Positions 2,132 to 21,544 of a stretch of DNA of 21,544 bases are shown here, piece after piece. The first letter of the stretch is position 1. Each line of letters opens with the position of its first letter. Source of the stretch: a virus; the IMG/VR virus record IMGVR_UViG_3300021961_000732, positions 1-21,544 of that record. One strand, given 5' to 3'. The notes beneath the pieces were generated by a model, which ran no database searches, had not been told where the DNA came from, and worked only from the letters and a program-made list of their open reading frames with translations. Made by a program: the position numbers and the translations under genes.

Positions 2132-2472
2132 CAACGAACCTCCATCAAAATGTCAACCCGAACCTCGGTGTTCTCGTCCATGTTGAAAGGAAGAAAAGTC
2201 CCACGATATGCAGGGGTGTCAAGTTGGTTTGCGCCGTGAATTGAAATCTCTCGGATTTGTGAAGCAGTGACCTGTTGCGTGTCAAAGAAAGCAGTGATTG
2301 AAAGAGTCCTGTCGTCAATTTTTTGGATGGTGGGGGTGACTGATAACTGGCTGTTGCCAATGCCTCCATCTCTCGACGAGGAATCGCCTCCTGTTGACCC
2401 AAGGCTCACCTTTGAAATGAGCGTCTTCATGTGGTCTGCCAAGGCCGCTTTCATTGAATCAAGAACAGGCAT
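2131..2472 (-). CDS. Small baseplate/fibre-adapter-like protein
   Basis: A 113-aa protein starting at the ATG at 2472 in a TGATG overlap with the hub gene, with GAGGTG five bases upstream of that ATG. The N-terminus (about 1-25) is a short helix, PVLDSMKAALADHMKTLI, followed by a serine/glycine linker with GGDSSSRDGG. The C-terminal 65 residues read QLSVTPTIQ, then TLSITAFFDTQQVTA, IREISIHG, YRGTFLPFNMDE and RVDILMEV. This beta pattern, with I-x-E-I-x-I-x-G, then R-x-x-F and a final alternating strand, resembles the N-terminal attachment domain of tail-collar or fibre proteins. I infer that it links the hub to the 388-aa protein encoded next. No database search supports this. Confidence 0.55.
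   Translation of the reverse strand: MPVLDSMKAALADHMKTLISKVSLGSTGGDSSSRDGGIGNSQLSVTPTIQKIDDRTLSITAFFDTQQVTASQIREISIHGANQLDTPAYRGTFLPFNMDENTEVRVDILMEVR
2139..2143 (-). promoter_or_regulatory. Shine-Dalgarno site (GGAGG) fixing the ATG at 2131
   Basis: GGAGG is seven bases upstream of the ATG at 2131-2129. It is inside the last codons of the 113-aa gene. It favours the ATG over the TTG that precedes it directly. Confidence 0.65.
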
Positions 2473-5400
2473 CACTTCACCTCAAAGAAACGGCTCTTTG
2501 ATTGCCCTATGGGTTTCCCCCTTTTATTGCTGTCCCTTGTGCCAATTTGACCCAAACCGCCACCATGCTTTGCACCAATGATGAAGTGTTGTGAGTTGTT
2601 ATGACGAACATAACGCTTGACAACGGCAATCACACGAACACTTCCATTTAACGCCAACTCATTCAACTCATTCTTCTTTTGTGATTCCGATTGGCGGGTT
2701 GGGTTGCTCGTTGCGGCTTGAATGTCCGACAACAGGCCCTCAATACCCTTTTCGTATTGAGCAACAATGAGGTTTGAGGTGGCCTTTGTATAGGAATGCG
2801 AGGCCTCAAACACTGCAAATCGCCCTTTCACGCCATGGATAGGGAGGTCAATTTCTATGATGTCGCCAGGATTTACGGATGTTGCCTTTAACAGCCCCTC
2901 GATTGAAACCAACGGCGCACCGTTTTCAGCACGACTCAACAAAGCCTTGGCGACCGTCAATGCTTCCTTCATTGTTTTGAGGCCTGGCACTTCTTTCTGC
3001 AAGGTTCGCACGAGATTGTCTTCTGCGTTTGACCCTGCCGCTTGACGCATTCTTTCCAAGTCTTTGACCACGACCTTGACGGTTTCATTTTCGGCCACTT
3101 GGTCGCCAATGATGATCACTTGATTTGGCGAGTCAAACATCCGACTTACACGAACCAGTTGCGCTCCACTATCACTTCCTATGCGGTTTTCCGTTTCATT
3201 GAACGCTTTCTCGGAATAAACCATCACGCCATTCTTCTCAACGACCAGTTGCCTCCCATCCACCTCCGTAAGACTCTTGATGACTTCCATGACATTCAAG
3301 CCTCGTGTGGGCCGTGAAACATAGGTCTTGCTATGTTGATTCATCAAGTGGAGAGCGGGATGAGCATCAAGTGTATTTAAAGTCTTGAATGTGTTTTGTG
3401 TGATTGAAGAAGACGGCATAGCCATGAAACCTGCCAAGGAACCTGCCGATTTGTCCAAAAGTTGTAGGGCGACATCGCTTGTTCTTAAGCCGATGGCCCC
3501 GTATTGTCCTGCGATCACATTCCCCAACTCAAACCCACTTTGAGACAACAACTCGCCTTCCGTGTTTCGGAACACAGCGAAGCGTTTGTTCTGCTTTTCT
3601 TTGATTTCCGAAACGCGCCACAAATGCCCTGCTGAATCGAAGAGGTATGGAGGGAAGAAAGAAGCGGAGAGATTTTGTCCATCAATTTGAATGAATGAGC
3701 GATTGTAGGCCTTCACCAAACCTTGACTTGAGCCATCGAACAAAATGAAGGGCGATTGGTTCACCATGATGAAATCAGTCGGGTCATAAGGAAGCAGACC
3801 TTTGAAATTCACAGTTGTTTTTGCCACAGCATCAATGCTTGAATCGTATCTACGCCATGTGTTGTTTTGGACTTTGGACAAAACCACGGAGTTGTCAATG
3901 AATGATGGAGCAGTGACATTTGCAGGGGTGTGAGAGATTGCATCCCGTAGTGTTCTCGCAGTGGTCGTATCAGTGCTGTCGGTTAAATAGAGGTCAACCC
4001 CCGAATCAAAATCAATGCTCGCTGTTGAACCTGCGTGAGAGATACCCTTTAACACATAACCATCAATGCTGGTGTAGGTGATGTAGCCCACCACGCCAAC
4101 AGCCATCAATTTGCCCGACGCTGGTAAGTCCAATCGGCGTTCAGCCAACAGCCCGACCGAGAGGTTACGGATGATGCGAACAGCAGGTATAGCGTCAAGC
4201 ATAGTTGAGGACTGTCGATATTCTCCTTCATCGGTTTGCTTGGCAAAGTCTCCTCCAACGCCTGTTCCATCAGCCGCATAACGAGACTCGGATTGATACA
4301 ATTTCTCGTCGCCCCCTGCATGGGTGATTTGTGAAAAGCGAGCGTCAATGTCCGAAACAATCTCGCCATCATTCTTACGAACCGCATCGGATTTGAAGTG
4401 CTGAAGCATGTTGCTGGTCGGAATCAAATGCCAAACCACATCATGCTCGTTTGCATCGGGCCATTCTATTTCAAAGGCCCCGTTTGCAGAAGAAATCAAG
4501 TCAACTTGATTCAAGGCACGATCAGCGTTGATTTCAAAGACTCCATATCGTTTGTCTCGTGTGAACGGTTGGAAGCCCAAGCCACCACTGTTTGAGGTTG
4601 AACACCTTGCGCCCAAAAGCCAGCCGTCCTGCATGAGATTTGATGCGAAACCATACATTTTCAGTGGTCGAACCAAGCGAACAGCGTAGTCCACATAACG
4701 ACGCTTAGGAATGGAGGCTTGAGCGATTGTTCCGCTTGCAGGTATGTCGCTTCCACGGCCCCCCTCTTCTGCTCGGTTGAGGTATGATTTTCGCAGAATA
4801 AACACGCCACCCCAAGCAGGAAGGTCGCCAGCACCTCGAACAGTCCAAACATCCTTGCCGTGAGTCATGGCATCAACACGAACCGAATCCCCGCTCACGG
4901 TGATTGCACCTTTTGTTGCATTGGTGTCGGGCGACCAAACAGGCTTTTGGTCGATGTTCACAACGGTATGAGAAACACTTCCACCTGTGGTTGTGAAGGC
5001 CTTGGTTGTGAATTGTGTGTTCATTGACCACGAGGGGAGGACGGGGTAAATTTGTCCGATTCCCAAATCGGTGTTTAGTGAAACAGCCTTGGTTGACAGG
5101 ACTTGATATTCGGTGTTCTTTGCATCCTTTCGCTCACTTTCAACCTCCATCACAAGCCCCAAACGAGGTTGACCTTTGGATTGAAGGTGGCGTTGTTCAC
5201 TGATTTCGGATAGAGGAATAGGGGCAACAGACTGGACTGTTCCGCTTGATTCCGAGCCAATACCCCAACCAGTGACAGGGTAGTGGTCGTTGGCAGTTGA
5301 ATAATGCACTGAAGCGGCATTCGTCTTGAGAGCATTTCCTTTGAGGGTAAAGAAATCGGCACTTGCGCCAAAGTCTCCCGAAGACTTGGCTAAAGCCATT

Positions 5401-8400
5401 GGTGACTCGGATTGCGGGTAGGATGTAGAACCTTTGAATTGAACGAGGTCAATGTGCGGATCTAAACCCTTGTTTTTGGGAATCATGTCCAAACTCTCGT
5501 TGATTGCGTAAGGATGCGGTGAAACCAAAGTGAAACCGTATTTTCTTGCCAAATATCCCTCAACGGCTCTCTTTTCATCAGTCGTAAGCCCACGGTCATA
5601 TTGAATGACTTCAGCAATTTTGCCGTTAAGGAAAAATGATGACGGGACATTCCCCACCGTATATTCTCCATTATCGGCTTTCCAAAAATTGCCTGTCGCC
5701 GTATAATTTCCTGCCCCTTTCAAATCAAGAGTCACTGTTGCACTGCTTCCTGCTCCATCACCTCCTGTGATAGAGGCAGTGACCAATTCGGGTTGCCCAC
5801 CCACTGCGCTGTTTGTTGCTGAACTTACCGTTGTCCATGTGGTATCGCTACCTGCCCACCACTGCCATTGGTTGTTTGAGTCCATTCGGATATAAAGATT
5901 GAATCCACTACGGGTAACTGGACTACTCGCCCTTGATTCGATTATTCCATGAATTGCATTATCGTCCGAATCAGCCCAAGCAACTACGAAAGCCGTTATT
6001 TCAGCCGTGTTTAATTTCTCGCTGAAAGGCGTGAACAATTTATCATTTCCGTCACAATCAACAACAGGCATGTCGTTGACATAACTTGATGATTTGATGA
6101 AGGTTGGCTGTGCCGAAGCGGTGCTTTGACTGAAAACAAAACCATTATCCGATGAATCAACCCATTCCGAAATAGCGTCCCCATCATTGAGATTCAAGGA
6201 GTCTGCTTTTAACCAAAGCACAGGGCTTGAAACGGGAAGCGTTTCCGATCTTATATCATCCACGGAGACATCCCAATGGCCGCTTGCGTGAGCCATTGGA
6301 GAGAGCATACCGAATTCAGTGAGATTCAAACGCCTGCCGATGCCGATTTGTTCCTCATGTGAAAGAACGGGGGTGTTTGAAAGACGGCGAAGGCCGAAGA
6401 ACGGCGTGGCCTCGGTGGTGTGGCCCGACATCACGATGCCAACTGGGAGGTTGCGTTCAATGCCTGCATAATTCGCTGGCATGTTCCAATCAGCACCATA
6501 CGCTGTGGCATCGGGGATGAGGTTCATTGAATCGTGAATGCCGCCATCAAAGCGACCCTTGCCCTCAATCTTTTGAGCGTTTTGATTTTCAGTGGGGTCG
6601 CCAGCGAGCATGTCCAGTGCGTCCGAGGCTGTCCTCGTCCCCCATGCTCGAATCGGCAGGTGGCGTGAATAATTGACCGTTGTTCTTGAGTCCATCAAGA
6701 AATAGAATTTCGTGGTAGCCTCTCCATCACTGTCTGTATCAACGGTCAAGCGAGAACCCTCCTGCAAGGGGTCTATACCGTCGCCTATGCCCTCTCCTCG
6801 TGTCAAACGCTCCGAACCACTGGTGGGCTTGATAATTCGCATAGTCCCTGCTGGTTCACGAATCGTGGTGTGGCCCATCAACACCGCACCAGCAGAACGC
6901 AATCCCTTGACATTCCCATGGCCGCCTGCATTCAAACCATTGAAGCCTTGATTTTGTAGCCATTGGACAGCATAAAGGCGTTCAAAGGCTTGAGCGTTCA
7001 CCGCCTGTCCTGCTGTGGTGTTTGGCGAATAATTCCGCAGAAGGATTTGCCGTGTGGCTGGATAGTTGGTAGAACGGGGCATCCCCGCCTCACGGTATCG
7101 GAAAGTCATGAAGTGTTCTCGGTTTGTTCCAAAGAAGGCGGGGTGTCCGTATTCTGCCAACCACGAACAAAGGAAAGCATCGGGAACACAACCAGTGTTT
7201 GTGTCGCTTTCCTTCAACAACCCCATGTCAAGACTTCCAGTGACCACATAATTTAAGCCGACACGAATAGGTGTAGCCGAAGCATTCAGCATTTCGGGAT
7301 CGTGTAAGAGCAAGGGAGGGACGGTGGCTAATTCAGTTGCACTACGAACAGCGATTGAGCCATGGGGTGAACCCGAAACATAGAGATTGCTTGCATCCGA
7401 AGTGATGATATTTGGTTGAGGTCGGCCACCGAAGAGGGTGCAATCACCAACCAAGAAACCGTTGACCATAAATTCATTCGCAACATTCCCCCTGTTGTTG
7501 AAAGTCAAAGCATCAGTGAGGGTAAGGTGTGTTGGCGTTGCTACGCCCGAAATCGTGGTGGTGCTTACCGTTGCTTGTGAAACACTTTGATTGCTTCCCT
7601 CGACTTTCGCATGTTCTTGACCTGGCGCAATCAAATAATCAACATTCTTTCTTGGAGTCGTAGAAGAATAGTTGCGTTTGTGATTATCAAGACGAGATCC
7701 GCCGATTTCCTCTTGAGGCAAACCGTCGCTTGAGAATGAACCCGTTGCTTCATCATACCCCGAAGTGCCTTTCAAATCCAAGGTGTCAAGGTCATAGCGA
7801 GTTGTTGAGTTGGTCGATGCCCCCGAACCAAATCCGAAATGCTTGTGTTCACTTTTCGTTTCAAACATGAGGCTATACGACGAACCGAAAGAACGGTGTA
7901 GTTGTCGTCGCAGGTTCATTGGAGTCCCACGATGCCCGATAGGAGAGACAAATGAATGCCCCTGCCGTCCAAAGCGGATTCGATGATGCGGATATAACTC
8001 TCCTGTCGCAGTGCCGTTGTTTGTCTGTTTCAACACCGAACCTCGCTCGGTGTGGTCGCTGATTTTGTGAGCAGTGAAGAAGCGTGTAGTCCCACTTGGT
8101 TGACTCCCTGCGGTGATGTTTGAATCAATTCCTGTCAAGGACATGCTCGGATGCAGAATACGCTTGCAGTGGAAAATCAACATCCGATCATGCGTGTCAA
8201 ATTGAGATGCCTCATTGGATGCCTCGGCCACACCCGCTTTCCTTGGGTCGGGGGGAGAAAGACCGCCCATGCCCCATGAAAGGTTTGACCACGCTTGCAC
8301 ACGGTCATGCCCCGACCGAACAAAAATTTCGCCAGGTATCTGCGTTTCATCGGGCAGTTGAATTTGTAAGTTGGGAGAGAAAGTGTCGTTGGGAGAGGAC

Positions 8401-9884
8401 GGGCCAACTATGTTTTCGTCGTCAATCTCCCTTGCATTCTGCAACTTAAAATCACGAATGACTGTCCCAAACGGCGATCCGCCTTTGAGAATCAATTCGT
8501 TGCCTTGGTCATCAACAACGGGCAGGTCTTCAAAGACCAACTCTTCATTTGAAATAACCAAACCTTTGACACGCTCACTGTTGACCGTGTTTGTTGTTCT
8601 AAAAGGACGAGAATAGGTTTGCACATTGTCATCATTGATTCCATAATTCAAGGTGTCGGCAGTGTGGCTTACACTTGAAATTGTAGTGCTGTCCCTCGCA
8701 GGCATCATGTTGTTGACATCTGCCGACAAAGCCGAAGTGTAACCGTTCTCAAGGGATATGCCCACTGTGTCGCTCTCTCCAAAGAAATTTGACCCGTATT
8801 CCAATGTCTCAATGTTGAGATCGCCAGTGGTTGTGGGTTGCGTAGTTGCCGCCGTCAAGACTCCCTCGACAGTGGGGGCAGTGATGTTGTAGTCGGGAGG
8901 AGGTATATTGGGCGTGATGCAAGAATTCAACCCTTCAATGGAAAACCGACTGAAACCCGATGTAGCGGCCCCGTCAACATCTGCTGATTTACCACTGCGG
9001 GACACTGCATTGACCGCAGGCAACGCCATGTTCCCTCCATCCATGGGCTTTGCCAACATTTTCCATTGAGGCACTGTTGTCCCGATTCCTTGGATAATAG
9101 GGCCGAGGTTTGCCCCCGACCAATACCCTGCATCACTGGATGGGGCATTCTTTTCCCATGACAGGACAACAGTGTGCTTTGGCGGCTCGGCATCAAAGGT
9201 GACTGAAGTTGCTCCCGTGGAACCAACGGGGATGCCGTGGCTGGCAATTGTCAACTTGACATAAGCAAGGGTGCTTCCGAGAAATCGCAGGCTCAAATCA
9301 GTGTAGTTGTAAGTCCCTGCGGCGGTTCCACCGACAACAACAATCCGCCCTTGTTTGGGAAGGTCGGACGGATAGCCATGTTGATAGGGGATGTCCAACG
9401 AAACCGACATGGTGTTGGTGTCAAGACCGCCAAAGGAAGAACCCGTGATTGTTTCTCGGCCCGACATTCGGACATAACGAGCGCGCAGAAGCCGTGTCAA
9501 TCCTCGCTCGCTCACCTGCTTTGCTTTACGACTGTTGATTTTGGCGGCGATAAGTCGGGTCGCCTCTTCTGTCCCCAAGTCGTAAGTGAGCGAAAGGCCA
9601 CCTGCCGTAGCCGCCGCCGCCGCCGCCTTCAAGTCAACACCGATCACATTTGTTGCTTCAGTGGGAAGGGCTTCGTGGGCAATCGGTGTGCGAACAACAA
9701 CAGTGAGTCCCTGCTTCCAATTCGATGAAGCGTTTGTCCCGTATTCCCAATCGGTGACATCATCATCGTAAGCGGTGTCGGGATAGGTGATGTGCATAGC
9801 AAAAAGACCGCTCTTGGGATAGCCTGTTGAAGAAGCAAAAGGCTGTGCCGTTGCGGGGTAAAGGGTCTTTTCATACCTCGCCAT
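2472..9884 (-). CDS. Giant (2470 aa) tail tip protein with LamG-like region and C-terminal baseplate-hub-like domain
   Basis: Starts at the ATG at 9884, five bases after GGTGA and just after the stop of the 1592-aa gene. Layout: residues 1-1200 are mostly unrecognised, with a six-alanine run near residue 88 and a His/Arg-rich patch at about 625-690. Residues about 1217-1452 form a LamG/concanavalin-A-like region that opens with PVLWLKADSL and W-x-D-x-S-x-N and closes with IAEVIQYDRGLT and GYLARKYGF. About 1500-2100 is beta-rich and unrecognised. About 2150-2390 resembles the gp27 / gpD-type hub: GLNVMEVIKSLTEVDGRQLV, an LERMRQ helix, KALLSRAENGAP, then VNPGDIIEIDLP and GRFAVFEASHSYT. The tail of the protein is basic. 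The hub-type end suggests that it caps the tube, with the long N-terminal part forming an adhesive tip. Typical hub proteins have a few hundred residues, so this is exceptionally enlarged. No peptidase, lysozyme or transglycosylase motif is visible. Confidence 0.7.
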   Translation of the reverse strand: MARYEKTLYPATAQPFASSTGYPKSGLFAMHITYPDTAYDDDVTDWEYGTNASSNWKQGLTVVVRTPIAHEALPTEATNVIGVDLKAAAAAATAGGLSLTYDLGTEEATRLIAAKINSRKAKQVSERGLTRLLRARYVRMSGRETITGSSFGGLDTNTMSVSLDIPYQHGYPSDLPKQGRIVVVGGTAAGTYNYTDLSLRFLGSTLAYVKLTIASHGIPVGSTGATSVTFDAEPPKHTVVLSWEKNAPSSDAGYWSGANLGPIIQGIGTTVPQWKMLAKPMDGGNMALPAVNAVSRSGKSADVDGAATSGFSRFSIEGLNSCITPNIPPPDYNITAPTVEGVLTAATTQPTTTGDLNIETLEYGSNFFGESDTVGISLENGYTSALSADVNNMMPARDSTTISSVSHTADTLNYGINDDNVQTYSRPFRTTNTVNSERVKGLVISNEELVFEDLPVVDDQGNELILKGGSPFGTVIRDFKLQNAREIDDENIVGPSSPNDTFSPNLQIQLPDETQIPGEIFVRSGHDRVQAWSNLSWGMGGLSPPDPRKAGVAEASNEASQFDTHDRMLIFHCKRILHPSMSLTGIDSNITAGSQPSGTTRFFTAHKISDHTERGSVLKQTNNGTATGELYPHHRIRFGRQGHSFVSPIGHRGTPMNLRRQLHRSFGSSYSLMFETKSEHKHFGFGSGASTNSTTRYDLDTLDLKGTSGYDEATGSFSSDGLPQEEIGGSRLDNHKRNYSSTTPRKNVDYLIAPGQEHAKVEGSNQSVSQATVSTTTISGVATPTHLTLTDALTFNNRGNVANEFMVNGFLVGDCTLFGGRPQPNIITSDASNLYVSGSPHGSIAVRSATELATVPPLLLHDPEMLNASATPIRVGLNYVVTGSLDMGLLKESDTNTGCVPDAFLCSWLAEYGHPAFFGTNREHFMTFRYREAGMPRSTNYPATRQILLRNYSPNTTAGQAVNAQAFERLYAVQWLQNQGFNGLNAGGHGNVKGLRSAGAVLMGHTTIREPAGTMRIIKPTSGSERLTRGEGIGDGIDPLQEGSRLTVDTDSDGEATTKFYFLMDSRTTVNYSRHLPIRAWGTRTASDALDMLAGDPTENQNAQKIEGKGRFDGGIHDSMNLIPDATAYGADWNMPANYAGIERNLPVGIVMSGHTTEATPFFGLRRLSNTPVLSHEEQIGIGRRLNLTEFGMLSPMAHASGHWDVSVDDIRSETLPVSSPVLWLKADSLNLNDGDAISEWVDSSDNGFVFSQSTASAQPTFIKSSSYVNDMPVVDCDGNDKLFTPFSEKLNTAEITAFVVAWADSDDNAIHGIIESRASSPVTRSGFNLYIRMDSNNQWQWWAGSDTTWTTVSSATNSAVGGQPELVTASITGGDGAGSSATVTLDLKGAGNYTATGNFWKADNGEYTVGNVPSSFFLNGKIAEVIQYDRGLTTDEKRAVEGYLARKYGFTLVSPHPYAINESLDMIPKNKGLDPHIDLVQFKGSTSYPQSESPMALAKSSGDFGASADFFTLKGNALKTNAASVHYSTANDHYPVTGWGIGSESSGTVQSVAPIPLSEISEQRHLQSKGQPRLGLVMEVESERKDAKNTEYQVLSTKAVSLNTDLGIGQIYPVLPSWSMNTQFTTKAFTTTGGSVSHTVVNIDQKPVWSPDTNATKGAITVSGDSVRVDAMTHGKDVWTVRGAGDLPAWGGVFILRKSYLNRAEEGGRGSDIPASGTIAQASIPKRRYVDYAVRLVRPLKMYGFASNLMQDGWLLGARCSTSNSGGLGFQPFTRDKRYGVFEINADRALNQVDLISSANGAFEIEWPDANEHDVVWHLIPTSNMLQHFKSDAVRKNDGEIVSDIDARFSQITHAGGDEKLYQSESRYAADGTGVGGDFAKQTDEGEYRQSSTMLDAIPAVRIIRNLSVGLLAERRLDLPASGKLMAVGVVGYITYTSIDGYVLKGISHAGSTASIDFDSGVDLYLTDSTDTTTARTLRDAISHTPANVTAPSFIDNSVVLSKVQNNTWRRYDSSIDAVAKTTVNFKGLLPYDPTDFIMVNQSPFILFDGSSQGLVKAYNRSFIQIDGQNLSASFFPPYLFDSAGHLWRVSEIKEKQNKRFAVFRNTEGELLSQSGFELGNVIAGQYGAIGLRTSDVALQLLDKSAGSLAGFMAMPSSSITQNTFKTLNTLDAHPALHLMNQHSKTYVSRPTRGLNVMEVIKSLTEVDGRQLVVEKNGVMVYSEKAFNETENRIGSDSGAQLVRVSRMFDSPNQVIIIGDQVAENETVKVVVKDLERMRQAAGSNAEDNLVRTLQKEVPGLKTMKEALTVAKALLSRAENGAPLVSIEGLLKATSVNPGDIIEIDLPIHGVKGRFAVFEASHSYTKATSNLIVAQYEKGIEGLLSDIQAATSNPTRQSESQKKNELNELALNGSVRVIAVVKRYVRHNNSQHFIIGAKHGGGLGQIGTRDSNKRGKPIGQSKSRFFEVK
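9610..9627 (-). repeat. (GCC)6 trinucleotide tract coding for polyalanine
   Basis: Six perfect GCC units on the plus strand (GGC on the coding strand) encode most of a six-alanine run near residue 88 of the 2470-aa protein. It is a simple repeat that could change length by replication slippage without breaking the frame. Confidence 0.8.
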
Positions 9885-9889
9885 TTAAT

Positions 9890-12800
9890 TCACCACACAG
9901 ACTTCCCGTTGAAGAGGGTTTGGGCTTCTGCAAAGGTCAATGCCCTTCGGAATATCGCAACATCGGTTATGTAGGTGTCGTCCATGTAAATTGGGCCAGC
10001 GTTGTTTGTTCCTGTTGTTCCCGACCCCACATCTCCAAATTGTCGTGTAACCACGGAGGCCCCCTCTTGATTGAAATATCCCTCAAGGGTTATTCCCGCA
10101 TCCAAGGCAAAAATCAAACTGCCACCATTTGTAGTCGCAGGCGCGCCAGGCACAGGTGTTGCCGTTGGATCTAACACAACATAAGGTGCGCCGAACAATG
10201 CCATTCCGATTGCGACCATGCCCCTTTCTCTTTGACTTCCGAGACTGGAATGAATGTCGGGATGATCTGCTGTTGAAGGCGATAGTCCGTCTGCACCTGT
10301 TTGGAATCCCAAGGGATCGGTATTTGGTGCGCTTCCTGCGTAGTTGTGGTCTTGGACATCAGCCATGTAATTCGTTAAATCAATGATTCCGTTTGTGACC
10401 GAGGGTGTGCCGCCGCTATCAATGTAGATGTTGCCTTCACTTCCAAAATAACAGAAGAAACGGCTATTGTCGGCATCATAACCCGCAACGATGTGCATCC
10501 ATTGTTGCGTTTGATATTTGACAATCCCAAGAGTCGTGGCCTGTCCAAAAAGCACCCCTGCTCGAACATCAAAAGGAGCGGCTGTCGGACGCGTCACTGC
10601 AACAAATAACTGCCCGAAGCCTGTTCCAGCACCGCAACCGCCTATGCTCAATCCATAGGGTTTATTTGGACTGTTTTTAGCGATTCCATGCAATATCGGC
10701 CCCGAAACATGCGTGTCGGTGGGGTTCTTAATCCAAGCACTGATTGTCCATGAATTCTCACCAGTGAAGTTGTTGCTCACTGGATGGTCGTATTGCACCC
10801 CCGAATTCTCTTCAGCGAGGGTCACTGCATCACCGACAGTGAATTGTATCGCTTTGCTTTCCTCGTCTTTGCCCGAAGCGTATGCTGGCCCATTTGCTAA
10901 GGCTCTTGCCCCTGCTGTGGTCAAATAAACTGCTTTGCCATACAACTCATCTTCAATTTTGGTGGCATCCTCGGTGACTGCTCCCGATGTTGCCACATTT
11001 GTTCGTATGTAGGTCAACGCTAAATCAGTCGGCTCACCGTTTGAATCCAACTCCATTTTGTGATGAAAACCTCGCAAAGTATTGTCGTTAATCGTGTCAT
11101 TGTTCTTCAAATCCGTGAAGTCAAGCACCGCCGATGCAGTGGAGACATCTCCAAGGTTTTGAAACCCACTAAATCCAGTTGGCCCCTTTGAATAATGGTG
11201 TTTGTAAAAATCCGAATAATCCTTGTTTGTTCCGTCGCTCACATCGAAGGTTACCCCCGTATGGCCGCCACCAAAGAACAGAATCCCCTTTGAATCAACT
11301 ATCGGCTCAAAAATTTCAACGACTACATCCTGCAATTCAGTGGTTCCATCGGTTGCGAAAAGGGCTTCATAGAATTGTTGTGTTTCTTGATATGGTCGTA
11401 TGTTTTGAATTTGAAATGAATCGGTTGAAGCATTGATTCCAACAATTGAATTCAAGCCTTCAAAGGTCGCCAACCTGCCATTGATTCTCAAAATACCTTT
11501 GTTGCTTGAAGACACTTTTCTTGCTCCACGAAGAAGCACTTCTTGAGCAGAAATGTCAACCGATATTCGGTTGATGGGCGGATCTAATGCGGGATTGAAT
11601 GATGCGGGGGCTGGACTCACGATTGCGCCTGCCCCGCCAATGTCAAGAGTTGGGGTTTTTGTGACCACTGAAAAATTTCCTCCTAAACCATCGTAAGAGC
11701 GAAGGGTATCGTTGAGATGTGTTGCTCCGTGAGGCGCACCCGTAAATGTGGTGATGGGAACAAAGGTTTCGCCATCAAGTCCTAAAGGAAGTGGCGCAGG
11801 GAATGAGTTGGCTTTGTAGTGGCGGCTATTTGTCGCCAACAAACCACCAAATCCAACTGCTTGCTTGGGCTTGTAAGCGTAAGGTGAATTGTTGGTCAAC
11901 CACACTGCAAAGTTGCGACCCGATGCGCCAGGCACAGTGCTGTGAATGACAATCGAAACGCCGTTCTCGCCCGTCCTGCTCTCCACCGATGAGCCAACAA
12001 ATGCACGAACATACCCCATGTGACTTCCAGTGTTTGCACTTGAAGGACTCGCCGTAAAGAGCGGGGGCGGGTCAAACGCACTGCCCCCTGTGCTATTCTT
12101 GGCATCGGGATGTCCTGCCATGTTAATGCGCCGAATGACTTCTTCAACCACACTGGCAAAATCCTTCTCAACACTTGCTATTTCTCCCAAGTTGATAGTC
12201 ATCGGTTGAACATAATCCAAGGTATCGTCGCTCTTTTTTCCTTTCAAAGAAAGTGCCGCAGGGAAGCAATCAACAGGCAGAATTGTGTTCCTGTCATTGT
12301 TTGATTCTTCCAACTCAAACGGATCGAAAACAAAACCATTCATGTTCGTCCCATCGGGGTGAATGTAAAATTTGGTGTCGTCGTTGTAGTCAACAAACAC
12401 CTTTTCTGTTGATGAAGTCCAGTTGAACAGGGTTCGGATTTGTGAGGCTATGTCGCCAGCCAAGGTTGCGTTTGTTGTGTAGGTTGTGCTGTCGGGGAAA
12501 ACGAAACCACCTTTGATGACAGGCATACCCTCAAGAAGCGTAGGAAGTGGACTTGGTGTGCTGTTATCGAAGGCGTATTTCGTAAGCACGATGTCAAGAC
12601 TGGTTGATGTCAAGGCACTGATTTTTCCATAATACCCGTAGGTGTTGAGGAATCCTTCGCCAAACGAGACATATTCGTTGACAGCAAAACCCGTAGTGTC
12701 GTCAACAGTCAAGGTGATGGTTGAACCAGCAGTTGAGGATGTGGCGGTGCAAACGCACTGCTCCGATGGTCTTTGACAGCGAATAGAGGTTCCTGCATCA

Positions 12801-14668
12801 GTCAAATTATTGACCTTGAAGGCGGCGGCTGGTTCATACATCCCCCAGTCGATTGAATAACGGTTCTCGTATTGCGACATGTGCGGCCTGTTCATGGCTG
12901 TCATGGTGCAATCAATCATCAATTCCAGTGATTTGTTCGCTGGCAGGGGGTCGCCCTTTTCTGTTGTTGTTGACAGGATTTCTTGAACATCAAACATTGA
13001 TGAAGGGAAAATTGGGATTTCAACGAGAGCGCGTGTGGACGCATAAAGTGTGGAGGTTGCCTTGTCATTCCGAACCGATGGGTTCCCAGTGGTTACCACA
13101 CGGTCTTTCCAACCGTCCAAGAAGGAATGTTGTTCGTAGTCCGTTTTCGCATCAGCCATTCCCTGCCCTGCGCCACCGAGACTGATTGAAACGGTTGGCG
13201 ATCCCATGTCACCGATTTCTTTCACAGGCGTTCCTTCGCTCAAATTGAAGTCGGTATCGGAACGCTGGTCTGCTATGTCCATCAGTTGTGAACGGCCACG
13301 AATGTTTGCTATGGGCGAACCCATTGAATCCGTTTCGGGCGAAATTTCTTCGACACGGGCTTTCATCACCGTCAATTCAATGGACACCAAACATGGGTCG
13401 GAGGGGTTATCAGTGGCAGTGACCAAGTCGCTTAACGCCTCATGCTTCATCCGATTGCTTGGTTGAATGAGTAACAAATTTTCATTGTTCTCAACTTCGT
13501 TATCTATGATGTCAAAAACGGTCAAGTTGCTTCTTGAGAATGCAGAAGGTGTAGCCTTTGAAGAAGAATGGGCGGTGCGGTCGTTGCCTCCCAATGAAAT
13601 AACCGACAAGGTGTGAAAGTCGCTGTTTGCATCCTCGTCGGGGGTCATCAAAGAAGGAATGGCCTTCGGGCGGCCATATCCATTTTTTGAGGTCTGCGCC
13701 ACCACCACGCAATCTTCAACATTGACAAACACCGATGGAGAAACATCTCCGAAGGGAGCCGAAGTCAAGGTGTGAGACTTCAAAGGGCGGTTGAAATTGG
13801 TGGTCGGCACTGAAACAATTCCCCCTGCCGCAGTGATGTCAAGGAGAATGTCATCGTGGTTTGAAGGAACGCTTAAATACGGCTTCAACAACAATTCTGC
13901 AATCGTCTTCGGAGTCCCGCTCACGGACAGAACAGTGCTTGCAGGGGGGAACATTTCTTTGACAATCAAATACCCTTTGTCCCCCGACGCATAATACGGG
14001 CTGAAAGCAGTGTTGACATTTCCCGAACCAATGCTCGTGCCTGCAACCACTTCACCAGTGAGATCTATGGCCTCATAGTGAACAAGGATTTTCGACGGGC
14101 CACCGTTTGAAGAGATGATGGAAGGCGCAGTGATTGTGGCAATACGGGCATTCTTTTCGGGAGTCAAATGCCGAATGTAGTGTGGATTTGTTGGTTTGTT
14201 GTTTTTCAAATCAGCCCTGTGTTCATAGTCCAACGATTTTAACAGAAACGGTCGAACATCCTCCACAGCGATTGCGATTATTTCATTGTGTGATGAAGAA
14301 TTAAAATTGGCCGAAGAAAGGTTGCTATATTGGCCGATGCCGCCTTCAAACACAATTCGGTTAAAGGGTTGACTGGAACCATCAGTGGCTCTTGAAGTGG
14401 TGCTTTTGTTGCGAAAATCCAACAACTCTCCATTGAAAACGGTTTCAGTGACTTTGACCGCATCATTTTCTTGAATCATTGAATTGACTTCTAAGTTATC
14501 CGTTTGATAATTGAAAGTGTCTGCGATCCCCTGCACTGTTTTCTTGACCACTTGCGATTCGGGGATTGGCAGTTGCCTCAAGAAGAATTCTCCATCCACG
14601 AGGTTGTAGGAGGTGACTCCTGCGCCACCCACTTCTGCGGTATCGGATGATTCGTTTAAACTGCTCAT
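9890..14668 (-). CDS. Large (1592 aa) tail tip protein with C-terminal LamG domain
   Basis: Starts at the ATG at 14668, preceded by GAGGTG five bases upstream that overlaps the stop of the 778-aa gene. The N-terminal 90 residues include LVDGEFFLRQLPIPESQVV and look like an attachment segment. Residues up to about 1250 are beta-rich with no family I can name; one stretch near 640-670 reads TLTVDDTTGFAVNEYVSFG and another near 880-970 has GRNFAVWL. The last 325 residues are a recognisable LamG/concanavalin-A-like domain: NSWTISAWIKNP, then QWMHIVAGYDAD, and the closing ITDVAIFRRALTFAEAQTL. LamG domains in viral tail proteins usually bind carbohydrate, so I infer a host-surface adhesin or a tip scaffold. 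It lies between two other LamG-bearing genes. No signal peptide or enzyme motif is visible. Confidence 0.65.
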   Translation of the reverse strand: MSSLNESSDTAEVGGAGVTSYNLVDGEFFLRQLPIPESQVVKKTVQGIADTFNYQTDNLEVNSMIQENDAVKVTETVFNGELLDFRNKSTTSRATDGSSQPFNRIVFEGGIGQYSNLSSANFNSSSHNEIIAIAVEDVRPFLLKSLDYEHRADLKNNKPTNPHYIRHLTPEKNARIATITAPSIISSNGGPSKILVHYEAIDLTGEVVAGTSIGSGNVNTAFSPYYASGDKGYLIVKEMFPPASTVLSVSGTPKTIAELLLKPYLSVPSNHDDILLDITAAGGIVSVPTTNFNRPLKSHTLTSAPFGDVSPSVFVNVEDCVVVAQTSKNGYGRPKAIPSLMTPDEDANSDFHTLSVISLGGNDRTAHSSSKATPSAFSRSNLTVFDIIDNEVENNENLLLIQPSNRMKHEALSDLVTATDNPSDPCLVSIELTVMKARVEEISPETDSMGSPIANIRGRSQLMDIADQRSDTDFNLSEGTPVKEIGDMGSPTVSISLGGAGQGMADAKTDYEQHSFLDGWKDRVVTTGNPSVRNDKATSTLYASTRALVEIPIFPSSMFDVQEILSTTTEKGDPLPANKSLELMIDCTMTAMNRPHMSQYENRYSIDWGMYEPAAAFKVNNLTDAGTSIRCQRPSEQCVCTATSSTAGSTITLTVDDTTGFAVNEYVSFGEGFLNTYGYYGKISALTSTSLDIVLTKYAFDNSTPSPLPTLLEGMPVIKGGFVFPDSTTYTTNATLAGDIASQIRTLFNWTSSTEKVFVDYNDDTKFYIHPDGTNMNGFVFDPFELEESNNDRNTILPVDCFPAALSLKGKKSDDTLDYVQPMTINLGEIASVEKDFASVVEEVIRRINMAGHPDAKNSTGGSAFDPPPLFTASPSSANTGSHMGYVRAFVGSSVESRTGENGVSIVIHSTVPGASGRNFAVWLTNNSPYAYKPKQAVGFGGLLATNSRHYKANSFPAPLPLGLDGETFVPITTFTGAPHGATHLNDTLRSYDGLGGNFSVVTKTPTLDIGGAGAIVSPAPASFNPALDPPINRISVDISAQEVLLRGARKVSSSNKGILRINGRLATFEGLNSIVGINASTDSFQIQNIRPYQETQQFYEALFATDGTTELQDVVVEIFEPIVDSKGILFFGGGHTGVTFDVSDGTNKDYSDFYKHHYSKGPTGFSGFQNLGDVSTASAVLDFTDLKNNDTINDNTLRGFHHKMELDSNGEPTDLALTYIRTNVATSGAVTEDATKIEDELYGKAVYLTTAGARALANGPAYASGKDEESKAIQFTVGDAVTLAEENSGVQYDHPVSNNFTGENSWTISAWIKNPTDTHVSGPILHGIAKNSPNKPYGLSIGGCGAGTGFGQLFVAVTRPTAAPFDVRAGVLFGQATTLGIVKYQTQQWMHIVAGYDADNSRFFCYFGSEGNIYIDSGGTPSVTNGIIDLTNYMADVQDHNYAGSAPNTDPLGFQTGADGLSPSTADHPDIHSSLGSQRERGMVAIGMALFGAPYVVLDPTATPVPGAPATTNGGSLIFALDAGITLEGYFNQEGASVVTRQFGDVGSGTTGTNNAGPIYMDDTYITDVAIFRRALTFAEAQTLFNGKSVW

Positions 14669-14677
14669 TCAAACACC

Positions 14678-17014
14678 TCAAATGAACCCGTATTTTTCAG
14701 TGAAATAACCGTGGACTACGCCCCTATCATGCTCGCTTAAAACCGTGTCGTATATGAGGACTTCCGCCACTCGAAAATTGATTGGGGCCAACAGCGAACC
14801 AGTCCCCGAAGAAGGGTTAGCACTGTTGAATGATGTGGTGTTTCCAAACAAAGCGAAATTATCCGATGAAGCAAAATCGAAAGCATTTGGCAATCCCCCT
14901 ATGAATGAAGTTGACAATACCCCGTGATGGTAAATGTGAGCGTTTTGGTTTGTTCGGTCAATCACAATTGACACTAAAAGCGATTCTTGGTCTGTTGCTA
15001 AAGGGGACGAAGTGGAGGAATAAAGTGCAGTGTTTTGTAGTGAATAATTTGCCGAAGTCTTGTCTCCTGCTATGTTGTTCCGATCCGTTCCAAACAATCG
15101 AACCGTATGACTTGACGACCACACTGGCCGAATCATCATGAACACAGTCATGTCTTCTGTTGGTGAATCAATGGCAACACTTTCGCCAGCGAATGAACCA
15201 GTTGTTGTCCCATTGTGAAGCATAGCGGCGGTGGTCGCTACAAGACAAGCCCTGTTGTTGAAATGAACACTTGATGCCTCATATTGCCAATATCCCACAG
15301 GATAAACACCAAAGTTGTTTGAAGTCAAATCTAACCATTTCTTGAGGTTTCCTCCCGAAAAGTCGTTGGTTGTGTCCAATGCTTCAGCATTGAGCCATAA
15401 TTTCAAATTGGTTTGAAGAGGTTCGGGGTCATTGACCAATGTTGTTCGTGCGGCTGTTCCCGTGGTTATGCGACTACGGGTGTTGATGAAATAGGCCGTG
15501 TTATCCAACCCCGACTTATCATTGAACCGTTGTCCCTTGGTGAAGCGAGCGCGTGTAAATGCGTCTTTTTGACGGGTTACACCATTTACCGCTTTCTCTT
15601 TGTTCCCATCGTCAATGATGAGATCGGCGTTGCCAAGCGTAAGCCATATCGGGGTTCCATCATCGTGATGAAAAAGAAAGCCTTGGTCTTCGGGATGATT
15701 TTTTGTTCCAAGAACCGCTTTGTTCTTTACCTTGACCGAATGGCAACCAACGATTCCTGTTAAGAAGTTGAGCGAGACAATTCGGATTCTTTCGATTGGA
15801 TTCACCATGGGGTCAAGGTCTGCGGAATTTCCTATTCCCATGATGTTGCCCGATGTGTTCTTGACGAGACTTGAGGGTGTTTTAGTCAACCCTGTTTTTG
15901 GGTGAGTCCCTGCTTGATTTACAACACCGTTCAAGGGAGAGGCCACCAGCGTTGAATTGTTGATGTAACCTTCTGCATTGTTTGTCCAACGCTGTGCGCC
16001 ACTGATGGTCAAGGTGGCCCCCGAATAGCGTTGACGAACCTGTTCGGGCGTGAGGCCAGTCACATAGGCCCCTAACAACTCAATGCCGCTATAATAGTCA
16101 GTGACTCCACTTTCGTTAGCAGGCGGGTCATAGATTCGGAATTGACCCAAAGTGCCATTGTTGCTGAAGTCGTAAGCAATCAACACAAATGGCTTTTGTA
16201 GCCGCCCTGTGTGTTCGCCCGAACCATCTCGTGATTGCGTGGGAGATGCCTCGAAAGCATTGTCAAAGAAGTGAATATCGGGAACCTCTATGTCGTCGTT
16301 GAAATCCCAAAGACCAATCGTTTCGTTTGTCGCCAAAAGGTTGCCCAAAGCAGGGTTTGTGATGCCACGGTTCAAGCGAACACTTTCAATGATGCCACGG
16401 TATTCACCTCCACGACCTCCGATGAACATGTCCGAGGATGTGTTCTTGAGAATTCTTCGCTCAACCAAATTCATTTCAGCAACCAATTCTCCATTCAAGA
16501 ACAACTTGATTTCCTTTCCAGTGAATTGAGCAGTGACCAACATCAATGGCTGTGCGCCAAGCGTGAGGTCTTGGGGCTTATGTTCTCCCCCCGTGTAGGT
16601 TCCCGAATGCGATTCAGCAAGGACGGGCATGTTGAATGAGGTTTCAATGGTGAAATGTCCTCCCACAGTCTCAACGCTGAAGGTAAGTGCGTCTTCTTTG
16701 AACGGATCACCAGCCTTCAATTGAAAGCAACCTGGCTTTTCCAACACCACGCCTCCGTAGTCGGGGACAATAAAGGCATCAATCGTGAATTCTCCAAAAA
16801 TGCCGTTGAGGGGGTTTGCTTGATTGGGATAATGGATGCGGCCAACCTTCGTGGCATGACTCATTCTTGTGTTCGCATTGGTTCCCGAAACAGCGTCATA
16901 CGCAGGCCCCAACAGGTCAACCCCGCTTTCTTTGAATTGACCAGTGGGGACGACGATTCCATCCGTAAAACCATTGAAGCGAATGGCTTTGCTACGAAAT
17001 TTGTGAACGCCCAT
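14678..17014 (-). CDS. Tail tip protein with two LamG/concanavalin-A-like regions
   Basis: A 778-aa protein starting at the ATG at 17014 in a TGATG overlap with the preceding gene, with GGTGGG seven bases upstream. Residues about 10-255 are a LamG-like domain: FNGFTDGIVVP, GEFTIDAFI, LVTAQFTGKEIKLFLNGELV, DMFIGGRGG and IIESVRLNRGIT. The middle (about 270-530) is beta-rich, with VLIAYDFSNNGTLGQFRIYD and LTPEQVRQRYSG. Residues about 533-778 are a second concanavalin-A-like domain, opening LKLWLNAEALD and W-x-D-x-T-x-N and closing VAEVLIYDTVLS and GYFTEKYGF. The closing pattern is nearly the same as that of the LamG region in the 2470-aa protein, so one was probably copied from the other. Role: glycan binding or tail tip architecture, inferred from family and position. 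Confidence 0.7.
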   Translation of the reverse strand: MGVHKFRSKAIRFNGFTDGIVVPTGQFKESGVDLLGPAYDAVSGTNANTRMSHATKVGRIHYPNQANPLNGIFGEFTIDAFIVPDYGGVVLEKPGCFQLKAGDPFKEDALTFSVETVGGHFTIETSFNMPVLAESHSGTYTGGEHKPQDLTLGAQPLMLVTAQFTGKEIKLFLNGELVAEMNLVERRILKNTSSDMFIGGRGGEYRGIIESVRLNRGITNPALGNLLATNETIGLWDFNDDIEVPDIHFFDNAFEASPTQSRDGSGEHTGRLQKPFVLIAYDFSNNGTLGQFRIYDPPANESGVTDYYSGIELLGAYVTGLTPEQVRQRYSGATLTISGAQRWTNNAEGYINNSTLVASPLNGVVNQAGTHPKTGLTKTPSSLVKNTSGNIMGIGNSADLDPMVNPIERIRIVSLNFLTGIVGCHSVKVKNKAVLGTKNHPEDQGFLFHHDDGTPIWLTLGNADLIIDDGNKEKAVNGVTRQKDAFTRARFTKGQRFNDKSGLDNTAYFINTRSRITTGTAARTTLVNDPEPLQTNLKLWLNAEALDTTNDFSGGNLKKWLDLTSNNFGVYPVGYWQYEASSVHFNNRACLVATTAAMLHNGTTTGSFAGESVAIDSPTEDMTVFMMIRPVWSSSHTVRLFGTDRNNIAGDKTSANYSLQNTALYSSTSSPLATDQESLLVSIVIDRTNQNAHIYHHGVLSTSFIGGLPNAFDFASSDNFALFGNTTSFNSANPSSGTGSLLAPINFRVAEVLIYDTVLSEHDRGVVHGYFTEKYGFI

Positions 17015-18243
17015 CAAATACCCACCAGTTGTTCGATTGCCGCCATTGAAAGACGATATGTGAAAACAGAATCACCAGCCTCAAAACTTGGCTCAAACGA
17101 CAACAGAACGGCTGGTATGGCAATCCCTGTGCGAATAAATGGGTTTGGTCGGACAATCTCTCCGTTGACTGTTTCGGAGGGGTCAAAGGCTTCTTTATTT
17201 TCACTTGCAGGGTAGTCTGTTGTTTTACCTGCGGGTAGAACAAATTGTCGTAGAATCCTTTGGTTGTTTGGCGAGGAAGCCAGTGATTCGTAAGGAATGC
17301 GAATCCCGACGATGTATTTTGAAACAACCTTGCTCTCACCAATGTTGAGGAACCGAGAGGTGTCAATGGAGGGTATGGACGAAGGGAGGTCAACCAAGCC
17401 GCCAGCAAGCACATTTGGATTTATCAGTGCGCCGCCAGCACTTGAATTCATAATGATGTTCATCAAGTCCTGCAACTTATCCCCTCTCGTCATTTGAGAG
17501 GTTGCTGTTCCGCCTGTGAAATTGCTGATGAAGAATTGAGAAGGCCAATTGCCTGTTGACTTCTTTCTTGAAACATTGAGGTTGCCGTCCTCGCCAAGCG
17601 TTTTATTCTTCAATTCAATGCGTTCCTTCGTGGACACGCTGGTTCCTTGAATAGCGGCAGAAAGGGCCGCCTGCTGTCCTGTTTTTTGGGTGATGTCAAA
17701 AATGGAGGAAAACGCCACTGTTGCACCATTCACTTTGACATTTGCAGAACCAAGAGCGGTGTTGATCGCATCCGAAATACCTTCAGTGGTGGTCGTTGCG
17801 CTGATGTCCACCTCAATGATGCTCTTTGTCGCCACAGTAGTTGCCGTGTTGGTGTCATTCAATCGGATGGTGATGTTCTCGCCCAAGTCTGCATCAACTT
17901 GACCTGCACTCTTGAAAGTGAATTGCGCTCCATAGGTGTTTGTAAGGAGGCTGGCAAAGGAAGCGAATTGTTGGCGGAAGGTGGGGTGGGGTGAGGATTG
18001 AGACACGCCCACTGAAAGGTCAATTGCCATGGACGCACCTGTTCCTCCCGTCGCATCCGTATCGTCTGTGAGGATGCCGTCAACTGAAATACCCACCGTG
18101 ACTTGAGACAGGTCGATACCTGCTCGCACTGCGATAATCGGGAATGCTTGAAGTGAAACGGCTCGTTGAAGGCTGAAAGTGATGTTGGTTGCCTCCAACT
18201 CAATGACTCCACCATCCCTACGGATAAGTTGAATCATGGGCAT
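17014..18243 (-). CDS. Distal-tail/baseplate-like protein following the tape measure
   Basis: A 409-aa protein. I start it at the ATG at 18243, two bases after the tape measure stop, because GAGGGGG lies eight bases upstream; a TTG at 18249 would overlap the tape measure stop. The N-terminus, MIQLIRRDGGVIELEAT, and the C-terminus, with VLLSFEPSF, GDSVFTYRLSMAAIEQL, look like a compact beta domain of the distal tail or baseplate type. That domain is expected directly after the tape measure gene. Residues about 105-255 look like an inserted or added module: NITIRLNDTN, EGISDAINTAL, GEDGNLNVSR and FFISNFTGGTA. This is the order A-x-x-I-N, G-x-x-G-N, F-T-G-G-T seen in repeated domains of many phage and surface proteins. 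The exact family is not certain. Confidence 0.6.
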   Translation of the reverse strand: MPMIQLIRRDGGVIELEATNITFSLQRAVSLQAFPIIAVRAGIDLSQVTVGISVDGILTDDTDATGGTGASMAIDLSVGVSQSSPHPTFRQQFASFASLLTNTYGAQFTFKSAGQVDADLGENITIRLNDTNTATTVATKSIIEVDISATTTTEGISDAINTALGSANVKVNGATVAFSSIFDITQKTGQQAALSAAIQGTSVSTKERIELKNKTLGEDGNLNVSRKKSTGNWPSQFFISNFTGGTATSQMTRGDKLQDLMNIIMNSSAGGALINPNVLAGGLVDLPSSIPSIDTSRFLNIGESKVVSKYIVGIRIPYESLASSPNNQRILRQFVLPAGKTTDYPASENKEAFDPSETVNGEIVRPNPFIRTGIAIPAVLLSFEPSFEAGDSVFTYRLSMAAIEQLVGI

Positions 18244-18245
18244 GG

Positions 18246-20767: not shown

Positions 20768-20775
20768 ATTTAACA

Positions 20776-20779
20776 CACC
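20776..20779 (-). promoter_or_regulatory. GGTG-type ribosome binding site for the SAP-motif gene
   Basis: GGTG lies eight bases before the ATG at 20767-20765, in the 35-base gap after the tail tube stop. It is the main reason for choosing that ATG over the ATG at 20785 and the TTG at 20806. Confidence 0.5.
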
Positions 20780-20802
20780 TACCATTTCTGTTATAAATCC
20801 TC

Positions 20803-21544
20803 TCAAAGCACGAGGTATGGACTATTCTCCACGATTTTCATGTGGCGCACAGCCAACTCAACATCAACAATCACCGCTCCTTTGTCATCGGGGATTTGAT
20901 GGTCTGCCTTGGTGATAGTGTAGTCCTCAATGGTGATGGTGGCATCCTGTCGGGTGCTTGCAGAACCAGGCTTGTTCAAGCGCAGAACAATGTCGTTTGT
21001 GTTCTTGTGGTGTCGTCGGGTTCGCACCTCCTCCCATAGCCTGTCGTCTTCAACAATTGCTTGAAACGACACGGTGTAGTTGCGCTGTGCTTCGGTGATG
21101 TCCGAGGCGAATTGAGTCCCGCCTTGCTGGACTTGATCGGCATCAGCAGACTGTCCTTCGTAGCCACGGATATACCAGCGAGCCGTATTTGTGTTGTTAA
21201 TTTGGATGTTAATCGAAGTGCCACGGAGAACCAAACGCCCGAAGGCCTCAATGGTGAGGTTCATGAACAAATACGGTTTTTCACCATCAATTGCCAGCCC
21301 CGATACCTTTCGATTGGCGGCGTTGTTTGCAGTGTTCTCAAACATCCTGTGAGGCGTAAATACGCTGGCCGTATCGGTGTAGTGTCGGGCGGCCTCATAA
21401 TTCAAAGCAACCTTCAACTCGCCCTCGGTATCAGCCGAGATTGTAGCGTCCGAGATTTTGCACCCCGAATAGATGCGTAGCAACTGTTCCACGCCAGGCG
21501 TTGCATCCGTTTGACGGAATGACTGTTCGATTGAGAAGGTAGGA
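20803..21544 (-). CDS. Tail tube protein, 5' end off the window
   Basis: The frame stays open to the right edge: codons before the internal GTG at 21492 read PTFSIEQSFRQTDATPG, so that GTG is not the start and the N-terminus is missing. 246 residues are visible. The continuous text TFSIEQSF...TDATPGVEQL, LRIYSGCKISDATISADTEG, ELKVALNYEA matches the tube-protein pattern in which a Y-x-G-C-K-I-x strand is followed by a strand with SA-x-x-E-x-G and L-x-V-x-x-x. Later segments are KPYLFMNLTIEAFGRLVLR, WYIRGYEG, YTVSFQAIVEDDRLWEEV and VIVDVELAVRHMKIVEN. The hexameric tube forms the inner channel through which DNA passes. Its place upstream of the chaperones and tape measure is canonical. No tail sheath gene is visible in the window, so siphovirus or myovirus morphology cannot be decided. 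Confidence 0.78.
   Translation of the reverse strand, partial: PTFSIEQSFRQTDATPGVEQLLRIYSGCKISDATISADTEGELKVALNYEAARHYTDTASVFTPHRMFENTANNAANRKVSGLAIDGEKPYLFMNLTIEAFGRLVLRGTSINIQINNTNTARWYIRGYEGQSADADQVQQGGTQFASDITEAQRNYTVSFQAIVEDDRLWEEVRTRRHHKNTNDIVLRLNKPGSASTRQDATITIEDYTITKADHQIPDDKGAVIVDVELAVRHMKIVENSPYLVL

Follow-up and report, generated by a model that had tools for sequence, protein, structure and literature searches.

A large conserved tail-tip module with a hub-like protein and lectin-type cassettes in a marine, probably archaeal, virus

The 21,544-nt IMG/VR virus record IMGVR_UViG_3300021961_000732 (the window, meaning the whole stretch of DNA analysed) carries its structural genes on the minus strand. 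Three consecutive giant genes among them, P0007, P0008 and P0009, raise the question of what such a block does in a virion. The original prediction described them as tail-tip genes encoding an elaborate adhesion device. The block proved to be a large tail-tip module that is both real and conserved, made up of a hub and a scaffold protein split in two, into which lectin-type cassettes are plugged. The predicted frames of 778, 1592 and 2470 aa are correct in position and size, all on the minus strand:

14678..17014, minus strand: P0007, 778 aa, corresponding to the N-terminal portion of the P0007+P0008 fusion
14669..14677: gene break between P0007 and P0008, missing in fused relatives
9890..14668, minus strand: P0008, 1592 aa, corresponding to the C-terminal portion of the P0007+P0008 fusion
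2472..9884, minus strand: P0009, 2470 aa, putative baseplate hub protein with a giant N-terminal extension

The genes are closely packed: the P0007 start overlaps the stop of the preceding gene, P0006, by one base, and gaps of 9 nt and 5 nt separate P0007 from P0008 and P0008 from P0009. Viral-contig searches with single P0009 or single P0008 gave no matches; alignment queries did match. A three-sequence P0009 alignment recovered 40 loci, and a 22-sequence alignment recovered 104 matching stretches, of which 80 were kept. Many IMG/VR contigs carry the triplet block, at about 43-58% identity; this is the outcome sought in the gene-neighbourhood check proposed with the prediction. Four relatives located via P0006 share the gene order (main matches 33-72% identical), and the order tape measure-P0006-P0007/8-P0009 is fixed in relatives. 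P0009 relatives had no internal stops in three of four related records, at 56-57% identity. Because these frames are open in other records and the alignment searches returned 40 and 104 matches, the window frames are not an artefact; misassembly is ruled out by open frames in many contigs. Neither a capsid or enzyme assignment nor a sign of misassembly, the outcomes named beforehand as speaking against the prediction, was seen. At L230, L265 and L268 the P0009 frame is broken into two open reading frames (ORFs), by fission or sequencing error. In tblastn searches of 50,697 phage records, no relative was found for P0008 or for a relative's P0006; P0009 matched three records through its laminin G (LamG) part alone, and its last 367 residues gave four rows, all with E 2 or worse.

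P0007 and P0008 correspond to one protein. Among 74 P0006 loci, the two were split in 43 and fused in 25; five loci held P0007 alone in the stretch and one ended inside P0006. This tally was made per locus on 74 of 78 P0006 loci (L002-L005 left out), many of them on contigs of the earlier 40-locus set, and three loci of one virus (L033, L159, L220), which carry a further ORF of 544 aa next to the fused protein, were counted as fused. In the fused relatives, the P0007 sequence from residue 1 to about 484-530 runs straight into P0008 from about residue 2-19, and the fused protein reaches about 2100-2400 aa in other lineages. The junction alignment showed a short linker in the fused forms; in the window the linker contains a LamG-type domain of about 250 aa, after which come a stop codon, a 9-nt gap and the next start. 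These fusions rule out three independent receptor-binding proteins, and the notion of three separate proteins was abandoned. Five loci (L177, L178, L198, L200, L204) had P0007 homologues of 1142-1184 aa that also matched P0009, perhaps via an extra LamG-type domain.

P0009 appears to be a baseplate hub with an N-terminal extension of about 2000 aa, as judged from a hub-like fold in a modest AlphaFold2 (AF2) model:

2754..3203, minus strand: predicted hub (gp27/Tal/gp44-type) domain core, P0009 2228-2377 (AF2 model region 553-702, VIA, Pfam YQBQ)

In a Foldseek search with the model of P0009 1676-2470, the top 26 rows were all phage or prophage tail, baseplate, pyocin/monocin or contractile-injection-system entries; row 27 was a capsid protein. 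The top VIA row for the hub region was an HFTV1 tail chain (9h4p_BD; 121 residues, root-mean-square deviation (rmsd) 5.6 A) with a Z of 9.8, modestly above the 7-8 typical of this tool for models without a clear match. This 953-residue chain was taken as the hub gp44, the database row naming the HFTV1 tail alone. Further Z values were 9.8 for JBD30, 9.7 for Sf11, 9.0 for the MuSo2 43-kDa protein and 7.8 for Mu gp44; most of the rows after the leading ones were likewise hub-bearing entries. Pfam YQBQ matched weakly in the window (E 0.042) and at E<=0.1 in 14 of 22 homologues (best 1.3e-4). When ten HCTV-5 genes were compared by hhalign, gene 132 was best for the hub region (E 0.0023, probability 12%). 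As in gp27/Tal-type baseplate hubs, a hub fold was recovered (by Foldseek, VIA and YQBQ, with limited model confidence) and the gene lies downstream of the tape measure in the tail module. The N-terminal hub domain of Tal was not seen: the hub match lies at residues 2228-2377 of 2470, and the giant extension is therefore N-terminal. Since P0009 ends in a baseplate-hub-like domain, the label "tail tip" is correct.

Several results weigh against this assignment. The model of P0009 1676-2470 had a mean predicted local distance difference test (pLDDT) score of 48 and a predicted template modelling score (pTM) of 0.26, with only about 553-711 well covered, and whole-model Foldseek superposition was poor (TM 0.14-0.18 by query, rmsd mostly 17-20 A). 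Unrelated proteins scored VIA Z 6.2-6.6 on the hub region, a PilZ protein among them at 6.3, and a PDB profile search with the C-terminal region gave no significant match. Structure prediction, suggested earlier as a check, yielded a hub-like fold for the P0009 C-terminus and failed for P0009 1-1200, where the single attempt on the scaffold was uninformative (pLDDT 40).

Most of the remaining length is scaffold:

6273..9884, minus strand: P0009 N-terminal half, residues 1-1204, conserved, no family found
11069..14629, minus strand: P0008 core, residues 14-1200, no family found

This scaffold of about 2,400 aa matched nothing significantly in the family and PDB sequence searches made. For P0009 1-1200, Pfam returned no family on 22 homologues (two rows reached E about 0.07, each in a single member), the best PDB profile E was 0.13 (antibodies), and the N-terminus of the window protein alone had no PHROG match. 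For the P0008 core, none of 22 homologues matched PHROGs at E<=0.01 and the best PDB profile E was 1.2. The statement that most of the three proteins belong to no recognised family was borne out: a sub-threshold Laminin_G_3, a weak YQBQ and one PHROG match were all that appeared in the window proteins beyond rows at chance level. An hhalign match between P0009 about 322-503 and P0008 about 28-220 (E 0.003, uncorrected for many comparisons) is not claimed.

Such a scaffold could be enzymatic, serving penetration by opening the archaeal S-layer or glycans while the LamG domains merely target it. Many positions in P0009 1-1200 are invariant His, Arg, Asp or Glu (22 homologues), which suits an enzyme, as does the structural similarity of the HFTV1 hub to xylanases and glycosaminidases, of which excerpts of the HFTV1 paper mention some. 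Against it, no significant enzyme family was found in Pfam (two sets of 22 homologues), PHROGs or PDB profiles, and the Foldseek rows of the P0009 1-1200 model (endosialidases, best E 4.8e-4, and GH110) are unusable at pLDDT 40 and about 30 A rmsd. We therefore regard a penetration enzyme as unlikely.

The P0009 scaffold is interrupted at three sites, where cassettes are present in some relatives and missing from others:

5502..6272, minus strand: slot A, P0009 1205-1461, filled in the window with a LamG-type cassette (slot census)
4860..4919, minus strand: slot B, P0009 1656-1675, empty in the window (192-481 residues in 16 of 54 homologues)
8790..8864, minus strand: slot C, about P0009 341-365, empty in the window (slot census)

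In 36 homologues, slot A measured 5-11 residues in 22 and 255-264 in 14. Slot B measured 14-22 residues in 20 and 192-210, 371-380 or 478-481 in 16, and no homologue had both slots filled. These 36 include near-copies (25 proteins at 90% identity, 32 different cores). Eighteen complete P0009 proteins of at least 2150 aa were added, excluding those cut by a contig end, those with a BLAST score sum <800 to P0009 or a strong P0008 match, and those with identical last 1500 residues. Across the resulting 54 complete proteins, slot A was filled in 19, slot B in 16 and slot C in 11 (399-736 residues, compared to 96 in the window at 335-430); eight had none filled and none had two. At 90% identity the 54 reduce to 40 proteins: 14 with A, 10 with B, 9 with C and 7 with none. 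About 80 extra residues near slot C in L226 were not scored as filled.

In a core tree of those first 36 homologues, slot A required one change (SH-aLRT 94) and slot B three; for either slot, none of 500 shuffles gave as few changes as observed, a result that near-copies help. Because slot states follow the core tree, the exclusivity of the slots is at least partly inheritance. A rule of one slot only is not claimed, the absence of two filled slots in 54 proteins being confounded by phylogeny. The closest contrast came from L031 and L057, which are 96-98% identical in aligned locus blocks and show a net 1,071 bp difference in slot B; the two also differ by smaller stretches elsewhere downstream.

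Slot-B cassettes carry degenerate GSGYT-type repeats. Four of five matched PHROG virion families at E 1e-8 or better and the fifth at 0.002, the families being head closure, baseplate wedge, tail fibre and other structural proteins. With one slot-B cassette as query, tblastn gave no match, perhaps through low-complexity filtering. Degenerate repeats of this kind would favour an assembly artefact in repetitive sequence as the source of cassette presence and absence. That explanation is very improbable: slot states follow the core tree, lengths recur across contigs, and the frames are open in the tallied proteins.

LamG-type domains were located at the P0007 N-terminus and P0008 C-terminus and, in this lineage, also in slot A and at the P0007/P0008 junction:

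16280..17014, minus strand: P0007 N-terminal LamG-like domain, about residues 1-245 (sub-threshold Laminin_G_3 at 160-214)
14681..15430, minus strand: P0007 C-terminal LamG-type cassette, residues 529-778 (same family as slot A)
9893..10921, minus strand: P0008 C-terminal LamG-type domain, residues 1250-1592, poorly conserved

Laminin_G_3 matched slot A at E 5.5e-6 (27.0 bits; cut-off 27.6), and among slot-A homologues L020 scored above the cut-off at 40.7 bits while L024 had no match. A PHROG virion-protein family matched P0009 1219-1460 at 1.3e-13; the other Pfam and PHROG rows on the three window proteins were weaker and at chance level. By hhalign, the P0007 C-terminal cassette aligned with slot A at a probability of 98.6% (E 5e-16). 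One LamG-type cassette family occurs twice in the same virus, in the tip proteins P0007 (14681-15430) and P0009 (5502-6272). The lectin-type assignment has its own counterevidence: Laminin_G_3 (PF13385) scored 22.4-27.4 bits on window proteins and pieces, below the Pfam cut-off of 27.6; the isolated P0007 C-terminal cassette had no Pfam or PHROG match; and by hhalign the domain at the P0007 N-terminus showed no link to the remaining LamG domains.

Conservation differed among these domains. Mean identity in P0007 was 61% for the N-terminal LamG-like domain (15 homologues), 48% for the middle and 32% for the C-terminal cassette. In P0008, with gaps scored as differences, identity per 100-residue block was 0.46-0.66 in nine of the first 12 blocks, 0.27-0.34 in the other three, and 0.21-0.29 over 1201-1592; the C-terminal region was nevertheless related across all 38 sequences compared (single linkage). 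Judged by sequence, the C-terminal LamG-type domains of P0007 and P0008 are the best candidates for receptor binding. Slot A, at 52% mean identity (13 homologues), is not fast-evolving beside P0009 blocks of 46-58%, and because it evolves no faster than the scaffold, that cassette is unlikely to be the main specificity determinant.

These values also bear on whether the block is structural bulk, i.e. a large rigid baseplate or side fibres in which LamG domains make protein-protein contacts within the virion. The P0007 N-terminal domain is the best conserved (61%) and slot A resembles the scaffold (52%), as such a role would predict, and very close relatives can differ in whether slot B holds its cassette. 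In contrast, no long parts of P0007 and P0008 are less conserved than their C-terminal LamG-type domains, as would fit an external role, and we consider purely structural bulk improbable.

Our preferred interpretation, which we hold to be probable, is that P0007-P0009 make up a baseplate of hub, scaffold and cassettes that faces the host in a siphovirus-like marine virus, probably one of archaea. The C-terminal domain of P0009 (about 2135-2390) would close the tail tube as gp27/Tal/gp44 hubs do, and the N-terminal part of about 2000 residues would form a large peripheral scaffold; P0007 and P0008 presumably dock on the hub. LamG-type domains would bind host-envelope glycans and trigger hub opening; the scaffold is conserved, and at the fixed sites cassettes would come, go or be exchanged. 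We infer glycan binding, docking, triggering and host. Tail-tip placement is supported by the hub-like C-terminus and the fixed order after the tape measure. An adhesion role is likely, given lectin-type domains, position and partly fast evolution; these features do not establish adhesion as the original prediction had it. That the proteins carry lectin-type domains is supported by the Laminin_G_3-type matches. LamG-type domains make up only about a quarter of the residues of the three proteins; the bulk is conserved scaffold.

A broader possibility, offered tentatively, is a widespread marine archaeal virus lineage with a plug-board baseplate: two new families of about 1200 residues each, possibly new folds, with receptor specificity switched by cassette exchange in one of three hub sites while the hub stays constant. 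These viruses are known here from metagenome contigs alone, and host recognition must be read from genes. The hub and giant scaffold block is a recognisable marker (the 104 IMG/VR stretches above), and the L031/L057 pair, differing by one cassette, makes receptor modularity testable. In the excerpts of Xu et al. 2023 (PMC10160649), Laminin_G_3 domains are counted as auxiliary metabolic genes of magroviruses; our results suggest that these may include tail-tip domains.

The virus is marine and siphovirus-like, probably with an archaeal host. The portal of a relative (G001) matched 11 phage records, all archaeal viruses and some of them duplicate deposits, with Halovirus HCTV-5 best at 32%; because the portal matches archaeal viruses only, the host is probably archaeal. 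The capsid-region protease of the same relative matched 491 phage records, including hundreds of bacterial phages. Profile searches of genome contigs with the P0009 alignment gave no match, so no provirus or host link was obtained. The family-B DNA polymerase PF00136 was found in 0 of 23 related contigs (one of 108 kb; these contigs may not be complete, the window itself being a fragment), with the control positive in 5 of 14 genomes. According to the International Committee on Taxonomy of Viruses (ICTV), magroviruses of the family Apasviridae encode a family-B DNA polymerase, and the mode of replication in Satyavativiridae, a second family of Poseidoniales viruses, is unknown and may be host-driven.

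Another relative (G004) encodes an archaeal-type group II chaperonin (L016:12139-13710; Pfam Cpn60_TCP1, E 4e-141). The best 80 of 291 matches to this thermosome were all archaeal by title at 39-45% identity, with no phylum named. The same relative carries an HMGL-like (HMG-CoA lyase family) gene (L015:9653-10519); HMG-CoA lyase is listed among magrovirus genes in excerpts of Xu et al. 2023 (PMC10160649). The terminase large subunit (TerL) candidate beside its portal had no match.

Further genes of the tail module lie upstream of the tip. From right to left on the minus strand the order is P0001, the SAP-domain protein, two small proteins, P0005, P0006, P0007, P0008, P0009, P0010 (114 aa) and P0011 (389 aa):

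20803..21543, minus strand: P0001, tail tube protein, cut by the contig end (Pfam Phage_tube_2, PHROG 290)
20405-20806, minus strand: small SAP-domain protein between tail tube and tape measure (SAP E 6e-13)
18246..19718, minus strand: P0005, tape measure, 490 aa (PHROG tape-measure matches, best 4.2e-10)
17014..18249, minus strand: P0006, 411 aa, distal-tail/connector candidate (by position only)

Counterparts of P0001 in three relatives are 726-738 aa long. A P0006 profile had no match among the ten HCTV-5 genes and P0006 received no family assignment. The tape measure had been thought anomalously short; it is ordinary, because that of HCTV-5 has 480 aa, and in excerpts on HFTV1 tape measure residues are cited up to 341. 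It is the tip that is large: P0006-P0009 total 5251 aa, compared to 2321 aa for HCTV-5 genes 131-137, which follow its tape measure.

A short motif, F-x-x-[ATSV]-W-x-x-[LIVM], was often seen near the start of accessory ORFs and at times internally; in the window it lies in 363-587 on the minus strand. It occurred 14 times in L015 compared to 0.4 in shuffled sequence, five times in L010, three in L011, once each in L014 and the window, and not in L009 or L016. It is possibly a docking or packaging tag.

We compared the tip with known systems. No description of such a tip was found in an incomplete literature survey, and absence from print is not claimed; nor was a sequence relation to Tal or megatron proteins found. 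HFTV1, an archaeal virus with the hub gp44, shares the hub fold, a non-contractile tail and a short tape measure. Its hub match lies at 201-346 of 953 residues with a proposed C-terminal carbohydrate domain, whereas in P0009 the hub lies at 2228-2377 of 2470 behind the extension of about 2000 aa, and no PDB sequence matches. HCTV-5 (Druskaviridae) has a portal related to that of G001, the 480-aa tape measure and a gene 136 annotated "Laminin G domain" in its tip region, and the sequence relation is weak (tape measure E 0.0024, hub E 0.0023, probability 12% each).

In the evolved Dit and Tal proteins of some dairy siphophages, carbohydrate-binding modules (CBMs) are likewise inserted in tail-tip structural proteins (PMC7291167, excerpts). 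Slot A is likewise a carbohydrate-binding-type module in a tip protein that is missing from relatives (filled in 14 of 36 and 19 of 54 homologues). The tip described here differs in its LamG-type and GSGYT-type modules, other insertion sites, a giant scaffold and a gene break at one insertion point.

The nearest precedent found for the P0009 arrangement is the R4C megatron. Excerpts of PMC10276861 describe, for R4C/RcGTA, a central domain preceded by a long N-terminal stretch into which a carbohydrate-binding domain is inserted. The megatron differs in its N-terminal iris/penetration segment and its C-terminal fibre-binding domain of about 320 aa. P0009 has about 90 residues after the hub, exceeds the megatron about 1.7-fold in length and offers alternative insertion sites. 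VIA chains of the R4C and RcGTA entries scored Z 7.4 and 8.0, their megatron identity being taken from length and range. The central domain of P0009 matches weakly and slot A is LamG-type, with the N-terminal model at pLDDT 40; no hydrophobic helix was seen by eye in the first 60 or so residues, no predictor having been run. By analogy, the tip would work like CBM-decorated Tal or megatron proteins, with a domain order other than that of Tal.

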